Assembly: GCA_009773205.1 (NCBI GenBank)
Contig: WPAE01000030.1
Location: forward strand, 1-64,000
Direction of reading: 5' to 3'
From: Ignavibacteria bacterium
GTDB lineage: Bacteria > Bacteroidota > Ignavibacteria > Ignavibacteriales > Melioribacteraceae
Length of the DNA: 64,000 nucleotides
In this document: in pieces, positions 2,800-57,341 of the stretch
Numbering within the stretch: the first letter of the stretch is position 1
Layout: each line of letters starts with the position of its first letter
Notes under the pieces: generated by a model
Seen by the model: the letters and a program-made list of their open reading frames with translations, nothing else
Told to the model about the DNA's origin: nothing
Database searches by the model: none
Made by a program: the position numbers and the translations under genes

Positions 2800-5079
2800 T
2801 TAGAAAAGTTCCTCAGCTCTTTCCGTAAAAAATCCTTGCGGCCATTTAATGGCAAAATCCCCATCTTCTGTAATTGGTATGCTTACAAGTTCCGCCCCTT
2901 TTGGTGTCATATTAACATAAATAACATTAACATCCTCCGGTTTAATGCTTGGAATACCCGGTGGTAATTCTCCTTCTGAAGATTCCCTAATACGCCTTAA
3001 TATTCGCAGCATCATATGCTCACTATGATTTTCCAATATTAACACATTTTTATTTTCACCAAGAGCAGATTCTATGACAACATCACCTAGTTCAGCTTGA
3101 AGAGCGGGATGCAAATGGATTTCAGGTTGTTCAATCATTATGATTTTATTTTTATTTCCATATAGATTAACAAGAACTGGAATTACTTGACTAATCCCAA
3201 AACCTACATCTCTATGACTTACAACTATTTTTTTATCTACATCAAATAATACAAGATCGTTAATCCCTTCGACAGCATCGGGTTCATTTATTTTTTTACT
3301 TATCTTTTCAACTACTTCTTCTTCACTATACCATGTTGATAGTTTACTCAAATCAAAATCCAGCTCTTTGGCAGCCTCATGCAATTGAGAAATAAAATCA
3401 TTCCCATTTGTATCAGCATATTTTCTTACCTCAAGCCGATATTTCGAATTCATTTTTTTATTTTTATCCCCACTCAACCATCCATTAACTTTATCTCTTG
3501 TTATTCTTATATCTCGAAGTTTTTCCCAAGCTTCACCACCTCCGGCTTTCCAGTTGGGATCATTATTACTGCTAAATGGAAGGTGCCTTGGAGGGTAAGA
3601 CCTTACTGGGCCCAAATAAACCATTGTTGAAAATTGCCTTTCAACATTGTCATATATTTCTTCAAATAAATCATTGAGTCTAAAAGGAAGAAATAGATTC
3701 AGCGCATTAAAAAAATCTACTGCTAGTGAACTTTTACTAATCGGTTGAATAACCTGAGAAGATTCGATTTGATTTTGTTCTCTCTTTGCAAGCTTAATTC
3801 CTTTCGGAATAAAATTGTTTGGAGAAGCATAAAGATCAACAACAAGTTTATCCATGCATTCGTCAATTACCAACCAATCATCATCATCAATATTTGTTTT
3901 TGTAGAATGGGTTAACAACAAAGCTGATATTAACTCTTTAAGAAAAGGAGTCTTTTTGTTGAGATAATCAATTCTAAAGATTGCAAACATTGGACCCATT
4001 AAGTTTGCATTTGCACTCATACTTAAAAGAGGTTCATCGTTTAATTGAATTTCATACTTTTCAACGAAAGGATTTCCAACTGGAATAAACTCACCTGTTG
4101 AGACTTCATCAAAATAATCGATTTCGTTTTCAACGCGTATTATTTTCTTTTCCTTCTTTTCCTTTTGGGGTTGTGATATTTCTAAGAGAACTTTTATTTT
4201 ATTAATAAAAGGAAACTCACTTTTTAATTTTGTTTCATTCGAATCTATTTCTATTGCAAATTTTAATCTTTGATTTGGATCTCGTTTATTTAATAACTGC
4301 TTGAATCCACCTAAATCAACTGAATCTCCACTAATTGTCATGAAATGTGTATCAAGAATTTTTGTTGTGAAAGCATTATTAAGGTATAATATCGAGTGAA
4401 TTAGACTTGATTTACCTGAGCTATTAGGTCCGAATAAAAGTGTAATTGGTTTTAGTTTTAGCTCCTGCAGATTTGCATATGCCTTAAAGTTAGCCACCGA
4501 AACTGACTTTAAGTTTATATTTATTTTGTTTGTTTCTATTTTAGAATTAAAATCGCTCAATTCTTGCTTTAATAATTCTGTGTGATCTCTAAGTTCACTA
4601 ACATCATCACCTTCATCATCCCATTTCGCTAGTCTAACAACATCACCATTTACATCAAATATTTTTGAAAAAGATTTAACAGTAGTAAATATCTGTCCCG
4701 GTGTAACCTTGCTACCATCTGGATTTTTATAAATTTCTCTTGTGTTTATTGTATCTGCAATAACTTTTGTTGTTAGCTCTTCTCCATTGATATTTAATAT
4801 CTCGCTTATCTCCACATCTAACGTAACCGACTTCTTTGCTGTTATTTTATCTGCATTTTCTTTTTGCCACTCTATTAATCCAACATAATTACCTTCTCTA
4901 AAAAATAAATCCGGATAATTTTTTGTTCGTCCATGAATTTGAAATGGAGTTACTTCTGATCCATCTTTTTTTAGATAGTTTTTCCTCTGATTAACCTTAT
5001 CGGCAATATCTTTTGTGCGTAACTTTTCTCCCGTTTCTTTTAGGATTGCTACAATTTCTTCGTGTAACGTTATTGCCAT
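2800..5079 (-). CDS. HARE-HTH x2 / DUF3696-type AAA ATPase
   Basis: Residue numbers count from a GTG three codons before the chosen ATG at 5079, which has AGGTG six bases upstream. Two HARE-HTH domains come first (about 4-73 and 93-156), then an ABC/SMC-like ATPase: Walker A GPNSSGKSS at 220-228, a long middle insert, GFGISQVIPV (signature-like region, about 630), Walker B IIMIEQPEIHLHP around 650-661 and a switch histidine in LENHSEHMMLR. The C-terminus EDGDFAIKWPQGFFTERAEELF-type ending is characteristic of DUF3696 ATPases, relatives of OLD/AAA15 defence ATPases. The second HARE copy is more divergent than the first, which closely matches that of the GIY-YIG gene. It lies ten bases after hsdS and runs into the 311-residue partner. 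It is probably the motor or sensor of a defence module acting on modified or unmodified DNA (inference). Confidence 0.8.
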   Translation of the reverse strand: MAITLHEEIVAILKETGEKLRTKDIADKVNQRKNYLKKDGSEVTPFQIHGRTKNYPDLFFREGNYVGLIEWQKENADKITAKKSVTLDVEISEILNINGEELTTKVIADTINTREIYKNPDGSKVTPGQIFTTVKSFSKIFDVNGDVVRLAKWDDEGDDVSELRDHTELLKQELSDFNSKIETNKININLKSVSVANFKAYANLQELKLKPITLLFGPNSSGKSSLIHSILYLNNAFTTKILDTHFMTISGDSVDLGGFKQLLNKRDPNQRLKFAIEIDSNETKLKSEFPFINKIKVLLEISQPQKEKKEKKIIRVENEIDYFDEVSTGEFIPVGNPFVEKYEIQLNDEPLLSMSANANLMGPMFAIFRIDYLNKKTPFLKELISALLLTHSTKTNIDDDDWLVIDECMDKLVVDLYASPNNFIPKGIKLAKREQNQIESSQVIQPISKSSLAVDFFNALNLFLPFRLNDLFEEIYDNVERQFSTMVYLGPVRSYPPRHLPFSSNNDPNWKAGGGEAWEKLRDIRITRDKVNGWLSGDKNKKMNSKYRLEVRKYADTNGNDFISQLHEAAKELDFDLSKLSTWYSEEEVVEKISKKINEPDAVEGINDLVLFDVDKKIVVSHRDVGFGISQVIPVLVNLYGNKNKIIMIEQPEIHLHPALQAELGDVVIESALGENKNVLILENHSEHMMLRILRRIRESSEGELPPGIPSIKPEDVNVIYVNMTPKGAELVSIPITEDGDFAIKWPQGFFTERAEELF

Positions 5080-5088
5080 TAGATTCAC

Positions 5089-6345
5089 CTAACTAAATTT
5101 TTCTAAAAATTTTTTCTGTTCTTCCATTTCTTGAAGTATCTCTTTCATATGTGCTGCCCGCCAGGATGCGGTTAGACTTCCATCAAAAGCTTTCGATAAT
5201 AATAAATCAAATAAGTTCTGTATTTTTTTATTTGCTTGTTCCCTTAAATCTCTTTTCAGTTCCAGATTGATAATAATATCGTCAAACTTTTTTATTAATG
5301 ATTCTTTTTGTGTCGGATACGGTATACTCATATTTAATATGTCTGAATCAGAAACGGCTGGATAAGAGGCTCCTCTAGCCAAAGTCATTAATTTTTCTGA
5401 AAACCAATTTAATCTTGATAAAGCATAAAGAAATCCAAAACCATAATCTGCTTTTGTTCTTATAACACAAAACCCTGTGCTACAAACTTGATTATCCAAA
5501 TCTTTTGGAACTAGAGCTGTCGCTTTTAAATAAGGTCTAACTGTTGAAATAATAACATCATTGTGCTTTATAATTTGTTTTGCCCTACTTGGTGCATCTG
5601 AGCCAAAATATTTAGAATAAGAAATTATTTTCCCCGTTTTCCCATCAACACTTGATATATCAATATAATTAAACTCAATGTCGGGATATTTTTTGAAATC
5701 TTTCTGTTCGACTTTTTTAACTATTTCTCTTATTGTCATTATTCCACTATATGTAAGTGGATCCCCAAACATCTCGGTAAACAACGTCGGGACAATTTTC
5801 TCTGCTTTTTCATCTGCTTGTTTGCGAAGTTTACGTATTTCATCAGCTTGGTCTAATATTTCAATAATCCGATATTGCTCGGAACGTGGTGGAAGTGGTA
5901 ATTGATGATTCTGTAAGAAATTTAAAGGAACGCGTTGTTGACCAACCGCTCCACTCATTCTTAGTTTAGCTTCTTTTCTAAATGATTCTTGACGCAAATA
6001 ATAATAAAGATATTTATTGACTAATAAATTACTGACGCGTAATACATGAAATTCCGTTGAACCATAACCTATTCCATTCTTTAGATTTTTGGCTATAGCT
6101 ATTTTTCCATTTTCCATACATGGAGTAATTTTAGCAAAAAGAATGTCATCTTCTTTAAAAAAAGTAAATCCCTTTTTTACATCCTTAATCCTTCTCACAA
6201 TTAATTCTTCTATTTCGCAACTTACTTCTGACACTGCTTGCATTGGCACAAACGATACTTGATAATCATCTACATAATTACTTTGTTCATTATTTCGCGG
6301 ATTAATTTGGCATAGTTTTGATATTTGAACATTGCTCCAGTTCAT
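5089..6345 (-). CDS. hsdS: Type I restriction-modification specificity subunit
   Basis: HsdS gives sequence specificity to type I methyltransferase and restriction complexes. The 418-residue protein has the usual two half-repeats: a first target-recognition domain (about 1-150), the conserved helical spacer LPLPPRSEQYRIIEILDQA leading into RKQADEKAEKIVPTLF (about 150-195), a second recognition domain (about 200-340), and a second spacer ending in LFDLLLSKAFDG (about 380-395). The two halves should read the two parts of a split recognition site, which cannot be predicted by eye. The ATG overlaps the hsdM stop in an ATGA arrangement, so translation is coupled. Length and architecture are complete. 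Confidence 0.93.
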   Translation of the reverse strand: MNWSNVQISKLCQINPRNNEQSNYVDDYQVSFVPMQAVSEVSCEIEELIVRRIKDVKKGFTFFKEDDILFAKITPCMENGKIAIAKNLKNGIGYGSTEFHVLRVSNLLVNKYLYYYLRQESFRKEAKLRMSGAVGQQRVPLNFLQNHQLPLPPRSEQYRIIEILDQADEIRKLRKQADEKAEKIVPTLFTEMFGDPLTYSGIMTIREIVKKVEQKDFKKYPDIEFNYIDISSVDGKTGKIISYSKYFGSDAPSRAKQIIKHNDVIISTVRPYLKATALVPKDLDNQVCSTGFCVIRTKADYGFGFLYALSRLNWFSEKLMTLARGASYPAVSDSDILNMSIPYPTQKESLIKKFDDIIINLELKRDLREQANKKIQNLFDLLLSKAFDGSLTASWRAAHMKEILQEMEEQKKFLEKFS

Positions 6346-8084
6346 ATTGATATTTTTATTTCTTTCAAAAGGTTTTCTAATTTTTTAGTAATATTTTTTT
6401 CTATATCAATTGTTTCTTCGAGCAATTCAACAAGATTTTCTTCATTGTTTTTGTTAATAATCTGTGGTTTATATCTTCCAGCAGTTAAGTTGTAATCATT
6501 CTCTGAAATTCTATCAGCAAGAACCCACCAACATTTTGGTTCTTCACTTCCATGCCCTAGGATTGAGAGACCTTCAACCCCGGGTGGATTTTTGAAACCA
6601 AACTTTTTGTATATGTTCCATTGGTTAATCAAATCCGGTATATCATTTTTATCAGGTGTTTCCGGTCGCCCGCCACCAGTTATTTTATCCGGATCATATC
6701 CATCATTTTTTATTTCATAGAACCAAACCTTTTGAGTGGCTATGTTATTTTCAAACAACGAATCTTTAACCAGTTTTCTAAAAAGCAGAATTGAAGTCTT
6801 TACTCCCGCATATGGTTTAAATACTCCAGCAGGTAAACTAATTACAGCTTGCAAGTTGAATTTTTCTATCAGTTTTACTCGCAGTTCAATATGAGCTGTA
6901 GTTGAACCAAACAGCAACCCTTCTGGAACAATAACAGCACATCTGCCGCCTTCTGCTAGTGCATCAAACATAACCGCTAAAAATAATAATTCACTTTTTT
7001 TAGTGTTCTTGGGAAGATTTTCTCTAATTGATTCTTTTGGCAATACACCCGCAAAAGGGGGATTGGATAAAATAACTTTATACTTTCTATATAAATCTTC
7101 ATCAGTAAGACCACCCATTTCAGAGAGAGTATTTCCTCTTTTAATGTTTGCTTTAGAAATTCCATGCAGCACCATGTTCATTGTGGCGATTCTCATTATC
7201 TGTCGGCTAACGTCTATTCCATACAGAGAATCTTCTAGTAAGTGCCAATCTGGAATATTTACACCATCGCCTTTTTCATATGTCATCAAATTTGGATTGG
7301 ATTCTTTAAGTTCTCCCAAGAACTTTTTTCTTAATTTCGGATCAGTATCAAATGGTAATTCACTATCATTAAATTTTAAATGGCTTTCGCTGTTTAGTTT
7401 TTCAAGATATTTTCTAATTAACCATTCCTCACCATAGATAGGCACTTCCTCAATTCTTTGCGAGTATTTGGACATAATATATTCGAGTGCATCAATTAAA
7501 AAACCCGCAGTTCCGCAAGCCGGATCATAAATTGTATCACCGATTTCCGGTTCAACAAGTTCAACCATAAGTTTTCTGATTTGACGAGGAGTTCTAAACT
7601 GTCCAAGTAACGACCCCTCCATAGTATTAAGATATGTAAGCATGTATTCGTAAATATCACCTTTAACATCAGACCCTAAGGAAGAAAAAATTATCGAATC
7701 AATTTCATCTATAACTTCTTTGAGAACATTTGGATCATGAATCTCTAATACTGCATCACGGAAGTATGCAGCTATGTATTCATTATCGCTATTAATATTA
7801 GACATGTATGGAAACACTTCATCACGAATAAATTTGTGTAACTTATCTCCGCTATAAAATCTCCACTTACTCCAACGGAATCTTTCAGCTTGCTCTGGGT
7901 ATAATGTCTTGGCTCTGCTGCTCCCTAAACGTATCTGTTGAGCAATATCGTTTTCCCTTTCATCAAGGAGTTTAAGATAGATGAGATATGAGATTTGCTC
8001 GATGTAAGTAATTGGATTATTAACTCCGCCGGCGAAAAGTATATTTGTAATTTTATCTAGCTTTCTTCGTAAATCTTGATTCAT
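6342..8084 (-). CDS. hsdM: Type I restriction-modification methyltransferase subunit
   Basis: HsdM transfers a methyl group from S-adenosylmethionine to adenine N6 in the site chosen by HsdS. The 580-residue protein has the HsdM N-terminal helical domain (about 1-140), motif I DPACGTAGF at 187-195, and the catalytic NPPF at 341-344. An insert between these motifs (about 205-290) makes it longer than the roughly 500 residues of classic HsdM. The gene begins three bases after the hsdR stop and overlaps hsdS by four bases, giving the order R-M-S in one transcript. All catalytic motifs are present, so it should be active. Confidence 0.95.
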   Translation of the reverse strand: MNQDLRRKLDKITNILFAGGVNNPITYIEQISYLIYLKLLDERENDIAQQIRLGSSRAKTLYPEQAERFRWSKWRFYSGDKLHKFIRDEVFPYMSNINSDNEYIAAYFRDAVLEIHDPNVLKEVIDEIDSIIFSSLGSDVKGDIYEYMLTYLNTMEGSLLGQFRTPRQIRKLMVELVEPEIGDTIYDPACGTAGFLIDALEYIMSKYSQRIEEVPIYGEEWLIRKYLEKLNSESHLKFNDSELPFDTDPKLRKKFLGELKESNPNLMTYEKGDGVNIPDWHLLEDSLYGIDVSRQIMRIATMNMVLHGISKANIKRGNTLSEMGGLTDEDLYRKYKVILSNPPFAGVLPKESIRENLPKNTKKSELLFLAVMFDALAEGGRCAVIVPEGLLFGSTTAHIELRVKLIEKFNLQAVISLPAGVFKPYAGVKTSILLFRKLVKDSLFENNIATQKVWFYEIKNDGYDPDKITGGGRPETPDKNDIPDLINQWNIYKKFGFKNPPGVEGLSILGHGSEEPKCWWVLADRISENDYNLTAGRYKPQIINKNNEENLVELLEETIDIEKNITKKLENLLKEIKISI

Positions 8085-8087
8085 TTA

Positions 8088-10379
8088 TTATCCTACTTTT
8101 GCGTTAAATATTGATTCGTTCATTTCGCTGATTACATTCTTCAATCCATTTTCACCAAATAATTCTATTCCTAATCCAGCAGCATTTAGAATTGAGAGAG
8201 GGGGTTGGAATAAATCATCAATTTCAATTTTCCCTTTAACAACGCCTCTATTTTTAAGCATGTTGAGATATTGTGCTTGATCTGTAGTTAATGATTTTGT
8301 AACAAGCCACGCATGAAAATTTTCAGTAATTATTTCTTCCTTAGATTTCTGTTTTTCAACACCAAGAGCATACTTTATAAAATCAATTATATTACCACCG
8401 GGATTTCGATATGCATTTCTAAGGTTATCCTCATTGAAATACATATCAGGGCTGTTTAGAATTTCAGCGAGACGTTTTTCTTCTTCTTCTGTAAGGGAAT
8501 AATTATCTTTTTCTTCAGAAGAAACTTCCGATTGTTTTTTTATTTTTTCAATAATCGGATTTGTAATTAAAGATTTCTTAATCGTCTCTTCCCAATTAGT
8601 AAGATAATCACGCTTATCAATTCTTTCTCCTTGAGGTCCATATTCAACATAGTTTACATTATATAGCCATTCATCATCTAGTCCAAGTTCAATTAATTCT
8701 CGGTGAGTTTTTGGCTTATCCGGTTTCGTTTCATAAGCTCTTCCACCACCGGCTCCAGAAAAGATATCGAATTCACTATCATTAAAATATTTGTGATTAC
8801 CAAAGAAGTCGTAGATCATAAATTTCTTTTTATCAATTGAATCACAGGTGCGTGTTCCTCTCCCTCTCATCTGTTGATATAAGATAGGAGAACGAACTCT
8901 ACGGCACATAACCAAATGTAGAACTTCTCTGCAATCAAAACCGGTATCTAACATACCTACACTTACAGCAATCATCGGGTAGGTTTCTCTTTTGAATTTT
9001 CTTATCAATTCGTCAGCATTAGCAACATCACTCGTTATCACTTCAGCATATTTACCTTTTAGTTCAGGATGAAGTTGATTGAGATACTCAGTCAACCGAG
9101 TTGCATGATTTTTTGTTATAGCGAATACAATTGCTTTACCAGGACCGATTTTTTGGTTAGGGGCGAGTTCATTAAATTTTTCCCATGCTAGTTTATCGAA
9201 TTCCTCCATCATCATTTGGTTTGTTTTTGAGTTAGTCCACTTTCTTTCAAATTCGGAGGGATCATAATGATCTTCATTCAAATCAGCACCATCAGAAATT
9301 AACTCTGTAATGCGATCTGCAAATTTGTAGGGGACTAAATGACCTTCAACAAAGGCATCTTGAATTTTATATGAGAAGTCCGGCTTATCCTCTTTACACT
9401 GATAGAATTGAAACGTATTCCTCTCAATATAAATCGAAGGAGTTGCAGTTAATCCAATATGTAGAGCATCAAAATGTGTTAAAGCGGTTTGCCATGCGCC
9501 ATAAATAGAACGGTGACATTCATCAGCAACCACTACATCATAATATCCACTGGTAAATTCGGTATATCTAGATACCATAGTTTGCAATAGACAAACAGTA
9601 ATCTGTTTTTCTTGCCTTATCATTCCAGGTTTTAGCCAATAACTACCATGCTGCGGAAGAATATCTTGAAACGCTTCCAACGCCTGCTTTGCGAGTTGTT
9701 CTCTATCAACGAGAAATAATATTTTTTCAGCACGATTCGCATCAATTAGTCTTTTTAGATCAAGAGTAATTAAATCCGTTTTCCCTGTCCCAGTTGGTAG
9801 CTCAATTAAAAATCTTCTTTTACCAAGCTCTAAAGAATGATCAAGAGCTTTCATTGCTTCTTGCTGATACCCTCTAACTAGTCTCTTTTCACCTTGTCGT
9901 ATATAAGTATCCGGTATTTTAATTGTCGCCATAGGATGCTTTTCGATCCGCATCTGTAGTAGTCTTTCCAAATCTCTTTGTGAATAGAAAGAACTGACAA
10001 TCCTTGCATCATCATTCAGGTAATCCCAAAAATATATTAGATCACCGTTAGTTAAAAAGATGAAAGGGGCCCCAATTGCTTTTGCATAAGGTAGTGCTTG
10101 TTGCTTTGCTCTATAAGGTTGCAACGCGGATTTTTTTGCTTCAATTATAGCTAATGGTTTCCCATCTTGGGTTCTTAACAAGTAATCAGCTCTACCAAGC
10201 GCTTTTTGATTTGAATTAATAGAAGTGTTATACTCTATACTAGGTTCTTTAACTGAATTGTTATCTAAGTAGATAGAAAACTCAGTATTAACAAGGTTCT
10301 TATTAGTGATATCCCATCCAGCACTTTTTAAGAGATCGTCAATTAATATTCTGGCGTCTTGTTCCGTATTAAAATCCAT
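8088..10379 (-). CDS. hsdR: Type I restriction enzyme helicase-nuclease subunit
   Basis: HsdR translocates DNA using ATP and cuts it when the type I complex meets unmethylated sites. Counting from a TTG five codons upstream, the N-terminal PD-(D/E)xK nuclease has D70 and E86-A-K88, followed by a superfamily 2 motor with P-loop PTGTGKT (200-206), DECH (291-294), an LTATPS motif III, and QMRGRGTRT as motif VI. The EcoEI-like C-terminal region follows. I chose the ATG at 10379 because GGAAG lies at the right distance; the upstream TTG gives 768 residues instead of 763. A 24-bp motif shared with the HARE/GIY-YIG promoter lies 42 bp upstream, with a TTATAA box between, so a promoter probably starts here. 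Confidence 0.95.
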   Translation of the reverse strand: MDFNTEQDARILIDDLLKSAGWDITNKNLVNTEFSIYLDNNSVKEPSIEYNTSINSNQKALGRADYLLRTQDGKPLAIIEAKKSALQPYRAKQQALPYAKAIGAPFIFLTNGDLIYFWDYLNDDARIVSSFYSQRDLERLLQMRIEKHPMATIKIPDTYIRQGEKRLVRGYQQEAMKALDHSLELGKRRFLIELPTGTGKTDLITLDLKRLIDANRAEKILFLVDREQLAKQALEAFQDILPQHGSYWLKPGMIRQEKQITVCLLQTMVSRYTEFTSGYYDVVVADECHRSIYGAWQTALTHFDALHIGLTATPSIYIERNTFQFYQCKEDKPDFSYKIQDAFVEGHLVPYKFADRITELISDGADLNEDHYDPSEFERKWTNSKTNQMMMEEFDKLAWEKFNELAPNQKIGPGKAIVFAITKNHATRLTEYLNQLHPELKGKYAEVITSDVANADELIRKFKRETYPMIAVSVGMLDTGFDCREVLHLVMCRRVRSPILYQQMRGRGTRTCDSIDKKKFMIYDFFGNHKYFNDSEFDIFSGAGGGRAYETKPDKPKTHRELIELGLDDEWLYNVNYVEYGPQGERIDKRDYLTNWEETIKKSLITNPIIEKIKKQSEVSSEEKDNYSLTEEEEKRLAEILNSPDMYFNEDNLRNAYRNPGGNIIDFIKYALGVEKQKSKEEIITENFHAWLVTKSLTTDQAQYLNMLKNRGVVKGKIEIDDLFQPPLSILNAAGLGIELFGENGLKNVISEMNESIFNAKVG

Positions 10380-53363: not shown

Positions 53364-55191
53364 ATGACCAAAGAATACTTATCAAATTTATTTAAGACAT
53401 ATCAAAAAGGGGACGCAAGAGAGGAATCTTATTACAAACATCTTGCGGATTTTATTACAGCCTTTTCTGAATCTGAACGGAAAAAGAAAATTGATGTAAC
53501 AGTTCTCCCCAAAAAGACTGAAGCCGGAAATCCCGATTTTAGAATTTGGGATGGCAGACAAAAAATAATCGGTTACATAGAAGCAAAAGATTTAGGCGTT
53601 GATCTCGGCAAGATTGAAGACAGCGAACAATTAGCGAGATATTTATCAACTTTCCCGAATGTCATATTAACGAACTTCACAGAGTTTTGGTTATACAGAA
53701 ATGGCGAAAGAATAGAGAAAATATCTATTGCGCGTCCTTTTGTTATTAAAAAAATTTCTACAGTTCCGCCTCTTGAAAACGAAGCTAAATTATTTGAACT
53801 ACTTGAAAGATTTTTAGACTTTTCACTTCCCAAAACTTATACTGCTAAAACTCTTGCCGTTGAACTAGCAAAAAGAACAAAATTTTTGAAAGATGAAATT
53901 GTTACAGAAGAATTAAAACTCGGCACAAAATCAATTCACGGTTTTTTATGATGCCTTCAAAGAGTTTTTAATTGCAGGAATAAATGAAAGTGAATTTGCC
54001 GATCTTTATTCGCAAACCATTACTTACGGTTTGTTCGCCGCCCGTCTCCGCTCCGAGAAAGATTTTAACAGAAAACTTGCTTACTCATACATTCCTAAAT
54101 CTATAGGCATTTTAAGGGATGTTTTCAAGTTTATTTCTTTAGAAGACCTACCCAAGCAGATGGAAGTAATTATTGATGATATTGCTGAAGTTCTCAACGC
54201 TGCGGACGCTAAAAAAATTCTCGACCAATATTACCACGAAGGCAAAGGAAGCGACCCAGTTTTACATTTTTACGAAACATTCCTTTCTGTTTATGATCCC
54301 AAGACAAGAGAAAAACGCGGCGTTTATTACACTCCCGAACCGATCGTCTCTTTTATTGTCCGCTCTCTCCATGAAATTCTAAAAGAAAAGTTCGGTATTT
54401 CTGATGGATTGGCATCAAAGAATGTAACTCTGCTAGATCCCGCCGGCGGAACTCTAAGTTTCCTTGCCAAAGCAATCGAAACTGCGGTTGAAGAAATTGA
54501 AAGCAAATACGGTAGGGGCACTGTTAAAACATTTCTGAAAGATCAGATTCTACAAAATTATTATGCTTTTGAATTAATGATGGCTCCTTATGCAATCGGG
54601 CATATGAAAATGTCTTTTCTTTTGGAAGAACTTGGCTACAGAATGGAAGACGATGAGCGTGTAAAATATTATTTGACCAACACTCTCGAGATGAAAGAAC
54701 TTGATGAATCAAAATTTCCCGGAATGTCATCTCTTTCCACAGAAAGCCACGAAGCCGGAAAAGTTAAAAAGCAAGTTCCAATTCTTGTTATTCTCGGCAA
54801 TCCTCCTTATTCGGGACATTCCTCAAATACCGGCGAATGGATTTCCGATGTAATTAAAAAATATTATCAAGTTGATGGCAAACCTCTTGGTGAAAAAAAT
54901 TCTAAATGGCTGCAAGACGATTATGTAAAATTTATTCGCTTCTCTCAGTGGAAAATTGATGAAGCTGGTGAAGGCGTTCTTGGCTTTATTACGAACCACA
55001 GCTATCTCGATAACCCTACATTCAGAGGAATGAGGCAATCTTTGATGTACAGCTTTGACGAAATCTATGGTCTTGATTTGCATGGAAATAGTTTGAGGAA
55101 AGAAAAAGCCCCCGATGGAAATAAAGATGAAAATGTTTTTGATATTCAGCAGGGTGTTGCAGTTTGTTTTATGATAAAGTATAAGAAATAA
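53364..55191 (+). pseudogene. Type IIG/ISP-like nuclease-methyltransferase, N-terminal part, frameshifted
   Basis: The first frame (53364-53951) is a PD-(D/E)xK nuclease domain: NPDFRIW with D58 and E73-A-K75. It ends in KSIHGFL at a T6 tract (53942-53947). Removing one T restores a continuous frame through YDAFKEFLIAGINESEF into the second frame, which then runs to 55191. That part has a helical coupler, DPAGGTLSFL (motif I), LGNPPYSG (catalytic NPPY) and ends ENVFDIQQGVAVCFMIKYKK. Family members continue directly into a KVYHxEIFGLRE sequence, which here begins only at 56058, after a whole BRO-like gene. Full length would be about 1,036 residues. The frameshift may be a mutation, a sequencing error or slippage. 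Confidence 0.85.
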
Positions 55192-55207
55192 TTTGTGAGA
55201 TAATAAA

Positions 55208-56056
55208 ATGAGTAACGAAAAATCATTGGCTGCATTTGAAACTTTCAAAATTCGCCGTAATTACGACGAAGTGAAAGAAAAGTGGTATTTCTCTGTAATT
55301 GATATTTGTGCTGCTCTAACTGACCAAAAAAATTTTAAGAGAGCACAAAGTTATTGGACTACACTAAAAAACCGCTTGAAAAAAGAAGGAAGTGAGATTG
55401 TCACAAATTGTGACAAACTGAAACTAACAGCCGCTGACGGCAAAAAATATTTCACTGATGTTGCTGATGTTGAAACAATTCTTCGTCTTGTTCAATCTGT
55501 TCCAAGCAAAAAAGCGGAGCCAATTAAACTTTGGCTTGAAAAGGTTGGCTATCAAAGAATTGAAGAAATGAACGATCCCGCAATTGCATTAAACCGCTCG
55601 CGTGATTACTGGCAGAAACAAGGAAGAAGCGAAAAATGGATTCAGCAAAGGATGCTTAGCCAAGAAACAAGAAATAAACTTACAGATTATTGGAGCGAGC
55701 ACGGTATAAAAAAGGATGACGAATTTGCAATCCTTACAAATATAATCCATAAAGAGTGGGGCAACTTATCGGTTAAAGAGCACAAAGAAATGAAGGGATT
55801 AAAAACTCAAAATCTCTGCGACTATATGAGCGAGGCTGAATTAATTTTTACTGCACTTGCAGAACTTTCTACAAGACAAATTGCTGAAGTTGAAAAAGCA
55901 GAAGGATTTGAAGAGAATAAAATGCCGGCAAAAAAAGGAGGAAAAATTGCCAAAGACGCTCGCAAAGCTCTTGAACTGAAAACCGGGAAAAGTGTAATTA
56001 CCGGAGATAATTTTTTGCCGCCAACAAATACTAAAAAAACAATTAAAAGAAAATAA
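55208..56056 (+). CDS. BRO-N / DinD-like protein nested in RM gene
   Basis: The 282-residue protein has an N-terminal BRO domain (about 10-110; RRNYDEVKEKWYFSVIDICAA, then YFTDVADVETILRLV) and a C-terminal part like DinD/BRO-associated proteins (KGLKTQNLCDYMSEAELIF and KKGGKIAKDARKALE). BRO-N proteins bind DNA and are common in phages and next to restriction-modification genes. It has its own ATG 16 bases after the MTase fragment's stop, and its stop is followed at once by the next ATG. There is no other phage gene around. It may be a regulator or a companion of the RM enzyme. Confidence 0.8.
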   Translation: MSNEKSLAAFETFKIRRNYDEVKEKWYFSVIDICAALTDQKNFKRAQSYWTTLKNRLKKEGSEIVTNCDKLKLTAADGKKYFTDVADVETILRLVQSVPSKKAEPIKLWLEKVGYQRIEEMNDPAIALNRSRDYWQKQGRSEKWIQQRMLSQETRNKLTDYWSEHGIKKDDEFAILTNIIHKEWGNLSVKEHKEMKGLKTQNLCDYMSEAELIFTALAELSTRQIAEVEKAEGFEENKMPAKKGGKIAKDARKALELKTGKSVITGDNFLPPTNTKKTIKRK

Positions 56057-56057
56057 T

Positions 56058-57341
56058 ATGGCAAAAGTTTATCACTCAGAAATTTTTGGATTACGGGAAA
56101 CCAAATACGATTGGCTTAACAAACACAATATCAAAAATGTTAAGTGGAATAAGATTTATCCGAGCCGGGATTTTTATCTCTTTATGCCAACTGATAATAA
56201 GCTTGCAAACTATTACTACTCCTTTGAGAAGATTACCGAAATATTCCCTGTGAATAGTGTGGGAATAGTAACAGCAAGAGACAAATTCGTTATTGACTTC
56301 GACAGAAAGAAACTTGAAAGAAGACTGGAAGATTTTCGAAACCCTAAAATTGATGATGAAATATTAAAGCAAACGTATGATTTGTCGGAAAACAAAAGCT
56401 GGAAGATAAATGAGCAGAGAGAGAAACTGAGAAAAGATTTTGATTGGAAAGATTCAATTACAAAAATTCTTTACCGCCCTTTTGATGAAAGATGGGTAAT
56501 ATATAACGATGATATGGTTGAACGAACAAGAAAAGAAATTATGCAAAATCTGATGAGTGAAAACATCGCTTTAATTACCTCAAGGATGACAAAAGGCGAA
56601 ACTTTCAAGCATGCGCAAGTGACTGATAAAATAACTGAGGTTATTTGTGTGTCGCCAAAAACTTCCAACAATGGTTTTGTTTTTCCTCTGTATCTTTATT
56701 TGAAAAAAAAGGATAAAAAGAAAACTTCTTATATACAGATGATGATGTTTGAACCAGAAGCTGAGTATCAAACCCGCCAACCTAATATAAACCCATCCTT
56801 GTTTGAAGAGTTTAAGAAGAGTTACAAAAAAGACGTTACTCCTGAAGAAATATTTTATTACATCTACGCGGTTCTTTACAGCAATACCTACCGTACAAAA
56901 TATGTAAAGTTCTTAAAAATAGATTTTCCGCGTGTTCCTTTTACAAAGAACTACAAACTTTTTATTCAACTCGGTAAACTTGGCAAACAGCTTGCAGATT
57001 TACATTTGCTAAAATCTGAAGTGTTAGATAAATCTATTTCTGAATTTCCTATTGAGGGAAACAACAAAGTAGAAAAACCACACTTTGGCTACGCTCTGCG
57101 TGGCAATGGAAAAGTATGGATAAATAAAGAACAATATTTTGACGGAATAAAAGAAGAGGTTTGGCAGTATCAAATAGGCGGTTATCAAGTGTGTGAGAAA
57201 TGGTTAAAAGGTAGAAAAGAAAAAACACTCACATTAGAAGAGATACAAACCTATTGCAAAATTGTAACCGCACTTTCAAAAACAATTGAAGTTCAGATTG
57301 AGATTGATAAGTATTATGAAAGCATAGAAAAATCTTTATAA
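56058..57341 (+). pseudogene. Type IIG/ISP-like RM enzyme, C-terminal (specificity) part
   Basis: The 427-residue frame opens AKVYHSEIFGLRETKYDWL, the sequence that directly follows the methyltransferase part in intact homologs, and continues with FPVNSVGIVTARDKF and ILYRPFDERW, typical of the target-recognition region of these enzymes. It has an ATG right after the BRO gene stop, so it could be made as a separate polypeptide that reassembles with the first half. Otherwise it is simply the cut-off end of a broken gene. I label it a pseudogene fragment for now; function as a split subunit is possible. Confidence 0.75.

Follow-up and report, generated by a model that had tools for sequence, protein, structure and literature searches.

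A probable split Type IIG-like restriction-modification enzyme carrying a BRO/DinD-type gene at its methylase/specificity joint

Within the window (the whole stretch of 64,000 nucleotides that was analysed), a BRO/DinD-like gene lies between the two parts of what resembles a single-chain restriction-modification (RM) enzyme, which raises the question of whether this locus encodes an enzyme that has been split into subunits or merely the remains of a gene. The original prediction favoured a domesticated split enzyme, composed of a nuclease-methylase subunit, a BRO protein and a specificity subunit. Both the ORF listing and the sequence agreed with the anatomy it described, with all four frames located on the + strand (Table 1), and a complete BRO-type gene was indeed seen exactly at the methylase/specificity joint, with a 16-nt gap on one side and, on the other, the specificity ATG beginning 1 base past the BRO stop.

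Table 1. Features of the split enzyme locus, in positions of the window.
Feature	Position	Strand	Details
Nuclease part of RM subunit, N-terminal	53364..53951	+	195 aa, cut short by frameshift
Run of six T	53942..53947	+	Five T in relatives L118 and L127; cause of the nuclease/methylase frameshift
Gamma-type N6-adenine methylase part	54031..55191	+	Motifs DPAGGT, NPPYS; C-terminal end FMIKYKK
Spacer, RM stop to BRO start	55192..55207	+	16 nt
BRO/DinD-like cargo gene	55208 (ATG)..56056 (TAA)	+	282 aa, Bro-N domain, PDC-S13
Specificity (TRD) subunit	56058 (ATG)..57341 (TAA)	+	427 aa

The nuclease part matched the PADLOC Type IIG profile PDLC03610 over residues 1–185 (E 9e-30) and contained a PD-(D/E)xK motif (PDFRIWDGRQKIIGYIEAK) that is kept in relatives. 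The methylase part matched PF02384 (N6_Mtase; E 3.5e-10) as well as PF07669 (Eco57I), yielded PDB matches to LlaBIII (4xqk), 7lo5 and LlaGI (5ffj), and ended in ...AVCFMIKYKK-TAA, with the stop at 55191. The specificity half corresponded to Type_ISP_C (PF18135, E 1e-92), and in PADLOC the nuclease, methylase and specificity parts proved to be successive stretches of the single profile PDLC03610. The middle gene bore both marks of the PDC-S13/BRO family, namely a Bro-N domain (PF02498; 25.7 bits, barely above the cut-off of 25.6) and a full-length match to PDC-S13 (PDLC04920) over residues 1–278 (E 5e-115); its structure model had a mean pLDDT of 61 and an unreliable C-terminal half. An NCBIfam search at E 0.001 gave no match; DinD is used here only as a loose label. 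The 'PDC' gene names come from the embedding approach of Payne et al. 2024, as cited in PMC12988326.

Relatives were collected by searching 294 class-level genomes with the specificity half and 164 order-level genomes with the methylase half, after which the loci were fetched. The same joint was split in 15 loci of the window's class (apparently Ignavibacteria), i.e. the window, G319, G301, G277, G218, G369, G060, G207, G260, G330, G322, G311, G343, G314 and G373. Some of these relatives sit on short contigs, and G319 and G311, where the contig stops before the specificity gene, were counted as split from the methylase end and the cargo. Because the same joint is divided in 15 related loci, the split arrangement exceeds chance. 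A further 25 relatives were fused, with methylase and specificity parts in single chains of about 1035–1080 aa that read through the joint without interruption. The finding set beforehand as refuting a split enzyme was that no other genome has the three-gene order and that the motif is unmethylated; this refutation fails, as RM-BRO-S was found in G301 (L207), G277 (L117) and G369 (L201), and in G319 (L206) as far as the contig end inside BRO. Among the BRO-bearing loci fetched from public genomes, three (L005, L006 and L007) also have the enzyme halves.

The content of the slot differed between split loci. BRO was the commonest cargo (7/15, including one fragment and one broken copy), being found in the window, G319, G301, G277 and G369, in broken form in G218, and as a fragment together with DUF559 in G060. 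The slot was occupied by DUF559 in G207, by a Y1_Tnp/RAYT transposase in G260, G330, G322 and G311, and by an MNT-HEPN pair in G343. No gene was present in the slots of G373 (51 nt) and G314 (162 nt), the latter containing hairpins like those flanking the G311 RAYT, perhaps as the scar of a former RAYT. Specifically, a RAYT gene with REP-like hairpins spans 3600–4307 of L198 (G311), and similar hairpins lie at 3820–4010 of L200 (G314), where the gene is absent. At 2785–3484 of L204 (minus strand), the MNT-HEPN pair overlaps the methylase and specificity genes alike at the split joint.

By alignment, the joint maps behind the final methylase strand (about residue 1147 of LlaBIII) and ahead of the TRD core of LlaGI/LlaBIII (beginning at 1200–1205; PMC4872093). 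The methylase half ended in FMIK in 15/15 split alleles versus 0/25 fused relatives, and the specificity half began with M[AST]K[VI][YF]H in all 13 split alleles in which it was within reach, its start adjoining an RBS or an upstream stop. In all 25 fused alleles, an F stands where FMIK has its M, no start codon is present at the joint, and the linker comprises 1–3 codons (for example FFIKYKN-GK-KKQVYHQEIFG). Since the fused relatives cross the joint with such a short linker, no enzyme sequence has been lost at the joint. In a constraint test covering the split alleles with a readable methylase half, a single clade of split alleles on the methylase was not rejected and had the better likelihood (p-AU 0.78). 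The alleles fit one origin of the 15 splits, with later replacement of the putative cargo.

We therefore consider it about 70% probable, from the sequences compared here, that the window family represents a split Type IIG-like RM enzyme with separate RM and specificity polypeptides, the genes of which flank a slot occupied by a BRO/DinD-type gene. The compact three-gene operon would yield two enzyme polypeptides, RM (nuclease plus adenine methylase) and specificity; the latter may bind RM non-covalently via the former intramolecular interface, and this assembly would restore methylation and restriction by analogy with Type IIB RM/S and Type I M/S. BRO might then be a co-expressed, defence-associated DNA-binding passenger and not an obligate subunit, with its stop codon possibly coupling translation to the specificity gene, while the joint would act as a slot in which defence-type genes or mobile genes are exchanged, as in an hsdM-X-hsdS operon. 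The splitting step is plausible because EcoKI and Staphylococcus Type I enzymes function with M and S either fused or separate (PMC3510504, PMC6158711).

The nuclease-methylase-Type_ISP_C order of the window is the same as in single-chain Type IIG/IIL and Type ISP enzymes (PDB 7lo5/7lvv, LlaBIII 4xqk, LlaGI 5ffj). As in Type IIG, nuclease and N6-adenine methylase are located on one chain in the family (separated by an extra T in the window copy); in contrast to single-chain Type IIG/IIL, the window enzyme is interrupted by another gene at the methylase/TRD joint, and specificity is an ORF of its own in the window and the split relatives. Type ISP enzymes have an SF2 helicase-like ATPase located between nuclease and methylase, whereas the RM part of the window family comprises about 608 aa without a helicase; its nuclease-methylase region best matches Type IIG profiles, and the ISP name attaches to the C-terminal domain only. 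Going by gene layout alone, RM and specificity are on separate polypeptides, as in Type IIB enzymes such as BsaXI (PMC11997821), but the specificity subunit here is a Type_ISP_C from a fused enzyme, and cargo genes lie between RM and S. Type IIB enzymes of the BcgI/BsaXI kind are further characterised by cutting on either side of the site as an (RM)2S complex. HsdM_N and Methylase_S (PF01420), the domains that mark Type I hsd systems, were absent from the window proteins in the family search.

A second break in the window enzyme, overlooked in the original prediction, separates the nuclease from the methylase. The window's T-run reads GGTTTTTTATGATG versus GGTTTTTATGATG in L118 and L127, and the one surplus T ends the nuclease frame, which puts the methylase out of frame with the nuclease and leaves it only a TTG start (54031). 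In 10 of the 11 split relatives with a complete nuclease-methylase region, both parts form a single ORF of about 608–625 codons, the exception being L202, which carries its own frameshift within the methylase. The surplus T reflects either an error in sequencing or a private mutation of recent date. Programmed –1 frameshifting at this run was considered as a rescue of the window RM and discarded, since, when traced manually, the –1 frame reaches a stop within a few codons, and it is the +1 frame that encodes the methylase. The window copy is either mis-sequenced or impaired and, because of the frameshift, may not be fully active; the extra T makes it the least certain part of the case.

This frameshift belongs to a number of decaying copies that speak against a split enzyme, together with L202, G218/L119 (most of the methylase missing and BRO broken, with a decayed appearance) and L115 (a BRO fragment). 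Such copies would be expected if BRO or an earlier mobile element had inserted and killed the enzyme gene, leaving the ORFs as remnants, and the presence, in some genomes, of RAYT transposases and of REP-like hairpins at the joint points the same way. A dead gene at the synonymous divergence seen here (median dS of 1.37 for the methylase among split alleles) would be expected to have many stops, yet no stop codons were present in the analysed methylase and specificity frames of the split alleles. Omega (Nei-Gojobori) amounted to 0.036 for the methylase among split alleles (L202 being excluded from this set owing to its frameshift), 0.093 for BRO among split loci, and 0.166 for the specificity half in split alleles, equal to the 0.170 of fused alleles. 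RM, BRO and the specificity half are all under purifying selection, although the low omega could partly stem from time spent in fused form, if recombination moved the joint. Moreover, the motifs PD...ExK, DPAGGT and NPPYS are kept in split and fused relatives, the nuclease-methylase ORFs and motifs are intact in ten relatives, and the specificity gene retains its own start. Omega values of 0.04–0.17 at near-saturating synonymous divergence, in a split common to 15 loci, make destruction by insertion an improbable explanation, and one that is largely refuted at the family level. The proposal of a domesticated split enzyme instead of wreckage was thus borne out by the same order in other genomes and the low omega on all three genes; as far as can be judged from sequence, the split is real and maintained.

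The original prediction fared less well on the role of BRO. As a dedicated third subunit, BRO would belong to an obligate three-subunit machine and act, for instance, as a regulator of RM/S assembly that binds DNA. Apart from the prevalence and low omega of BRO, such a role would agree with the split-enzyme BROs falling in one clade of nine (support 0.975), albeit with two orphan BROs among them, and with PDC-S13 also separating hsdM from hsdS in true Type I systems (in L052 and L063, with HsdM_N and N6_Mtase upstream and Methylase_S downstream; L032 clusters with L052). However, most surveyed PDC-S13 loci had no RM genes recognised alongside, and BRO belongs to a set of cargoes that replace one another, as the same split haplotype also holds DUF559, RAYT, MNT-HEPN or a mere spacer. 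An obligate role is accordingly quite unlikely, and BRO is probably cargo rather than a fixed subunit. The window gene differs from other PDC-S13/BRO/DinD members in its placement inside a Type IIG-like enzyme.

Other PDC-S13 settings were encountered in the survey. L030 contains an HSDR_N plus N6_Mtase polypeptide (804 aa), BRO and a 480-aa protein that matched no Pfam family, with gaps of 3 and 1 bases, and its 3583–8287 region is possibly a Type IIB-like RM-BRO-S operon. L054 (3872–9367) carries an MmeI-type methylase gene, an Eco57I-type methylase gene, BRO and a T5orf172-ResIII helicase, and this type of system, with PDC-S13 embedded in a restriction-like operon, recurs in L037, L053, L059, L060, L066 and L072.

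It is very unlikely that the main purpose of the split is specificity shuffling, with TRDs being swapped by recombination between the conserved ends of a separate specificity gene and the cargo travelling along: the methylase half is mostly 80–94% identical versus 45–74% for the specificity half, the latter has conserved ends and a variable middle, and the methylase tree departs from host taxonomy, but fused alleles have the same methylase/specificity contrast, so splitting is unnecessary for it.

Returning to the split-enzyme reading, splits were rare outside the window's group. In L120 (G285), YhcG/DUF1016 (PDC-S02) separates methylase and specificity genes that are 76% and 52% identical, respectively, to those of the fused L114. 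L211 (G229) and L212 (G225) belong to the same enzyme family, a relative of which (L213) has both halves in one frame, and the L212 slot contains a DinD-type PDC-S13 gene. At 4679–4972 of L211 (minus strand), a 97-aa gene of no known family was observed between the halves of the split Type_ISP_C enzyme. The gaps on either side of the cargo were 1 and –8 nt in L120, 2 and 6 nt in L211, and 30 and 4 nt in L212, and the genes at the split joint of L204 overlap. Such short gaps or overlaps to either side of the cargo suggest that L120, L211 and L212 are operons with coupled translation. A survey of 297 Desulfobacterota genomes yielded one clear split with cargo, L234 (G802), with a Y1_Tnp gene in the slot; the other short candidates checked there turned out to be frameshifts, contig ends or incomplete frames. 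As L211 and L212 may descend from one split, about three further split events beyond the window's group are likely. We would give roughly even odds to the broader notion that single-chain Type IIG-like enzymes have, at their methylase/specificity joint, a recurrent slot within the gene, where the embedding of defence-type or mobile genes repeatedly turns one-gene enzymes into two-subunit ones with exchangeable cargo.

Embedding of defence genes within multi-gene defence systems is already known, and DarTG2 has been found embedded in a Type I RM system (PMC12255303). The slot logic of the window is shared by multi-gene RM systems into which other genes are embedded ('guilt-by-embedding', Payne et al. 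2024, as cited in PMC12988326); the hosts seen there were already multi-gene, whereas the slot described here interrupts a gene that relatives have in one piece, so that subunits are created. The literature searched contained no account of a Type IIG/ISP enzyme that is split and carries embedded cargo, and what is new with respect to it is the embedding in a single-chain enzyme, with a split at a domain boundary that is under selection and recurs in other lineages. If the notion of a recurrent slot is true, an operon of the hsdM-X-hsdS style can arise by splitting of a fused enzyme, and not solely by the opposite route, fusion. The natural fused/split pairs, with methylase identities of up to about 94%, would lend themselves to studying the interconversion of one-piece and multi-subunit enzymes, and the slot marks BRO, DUF559, YhcG and MNT-HEPN as candidate defence genes.
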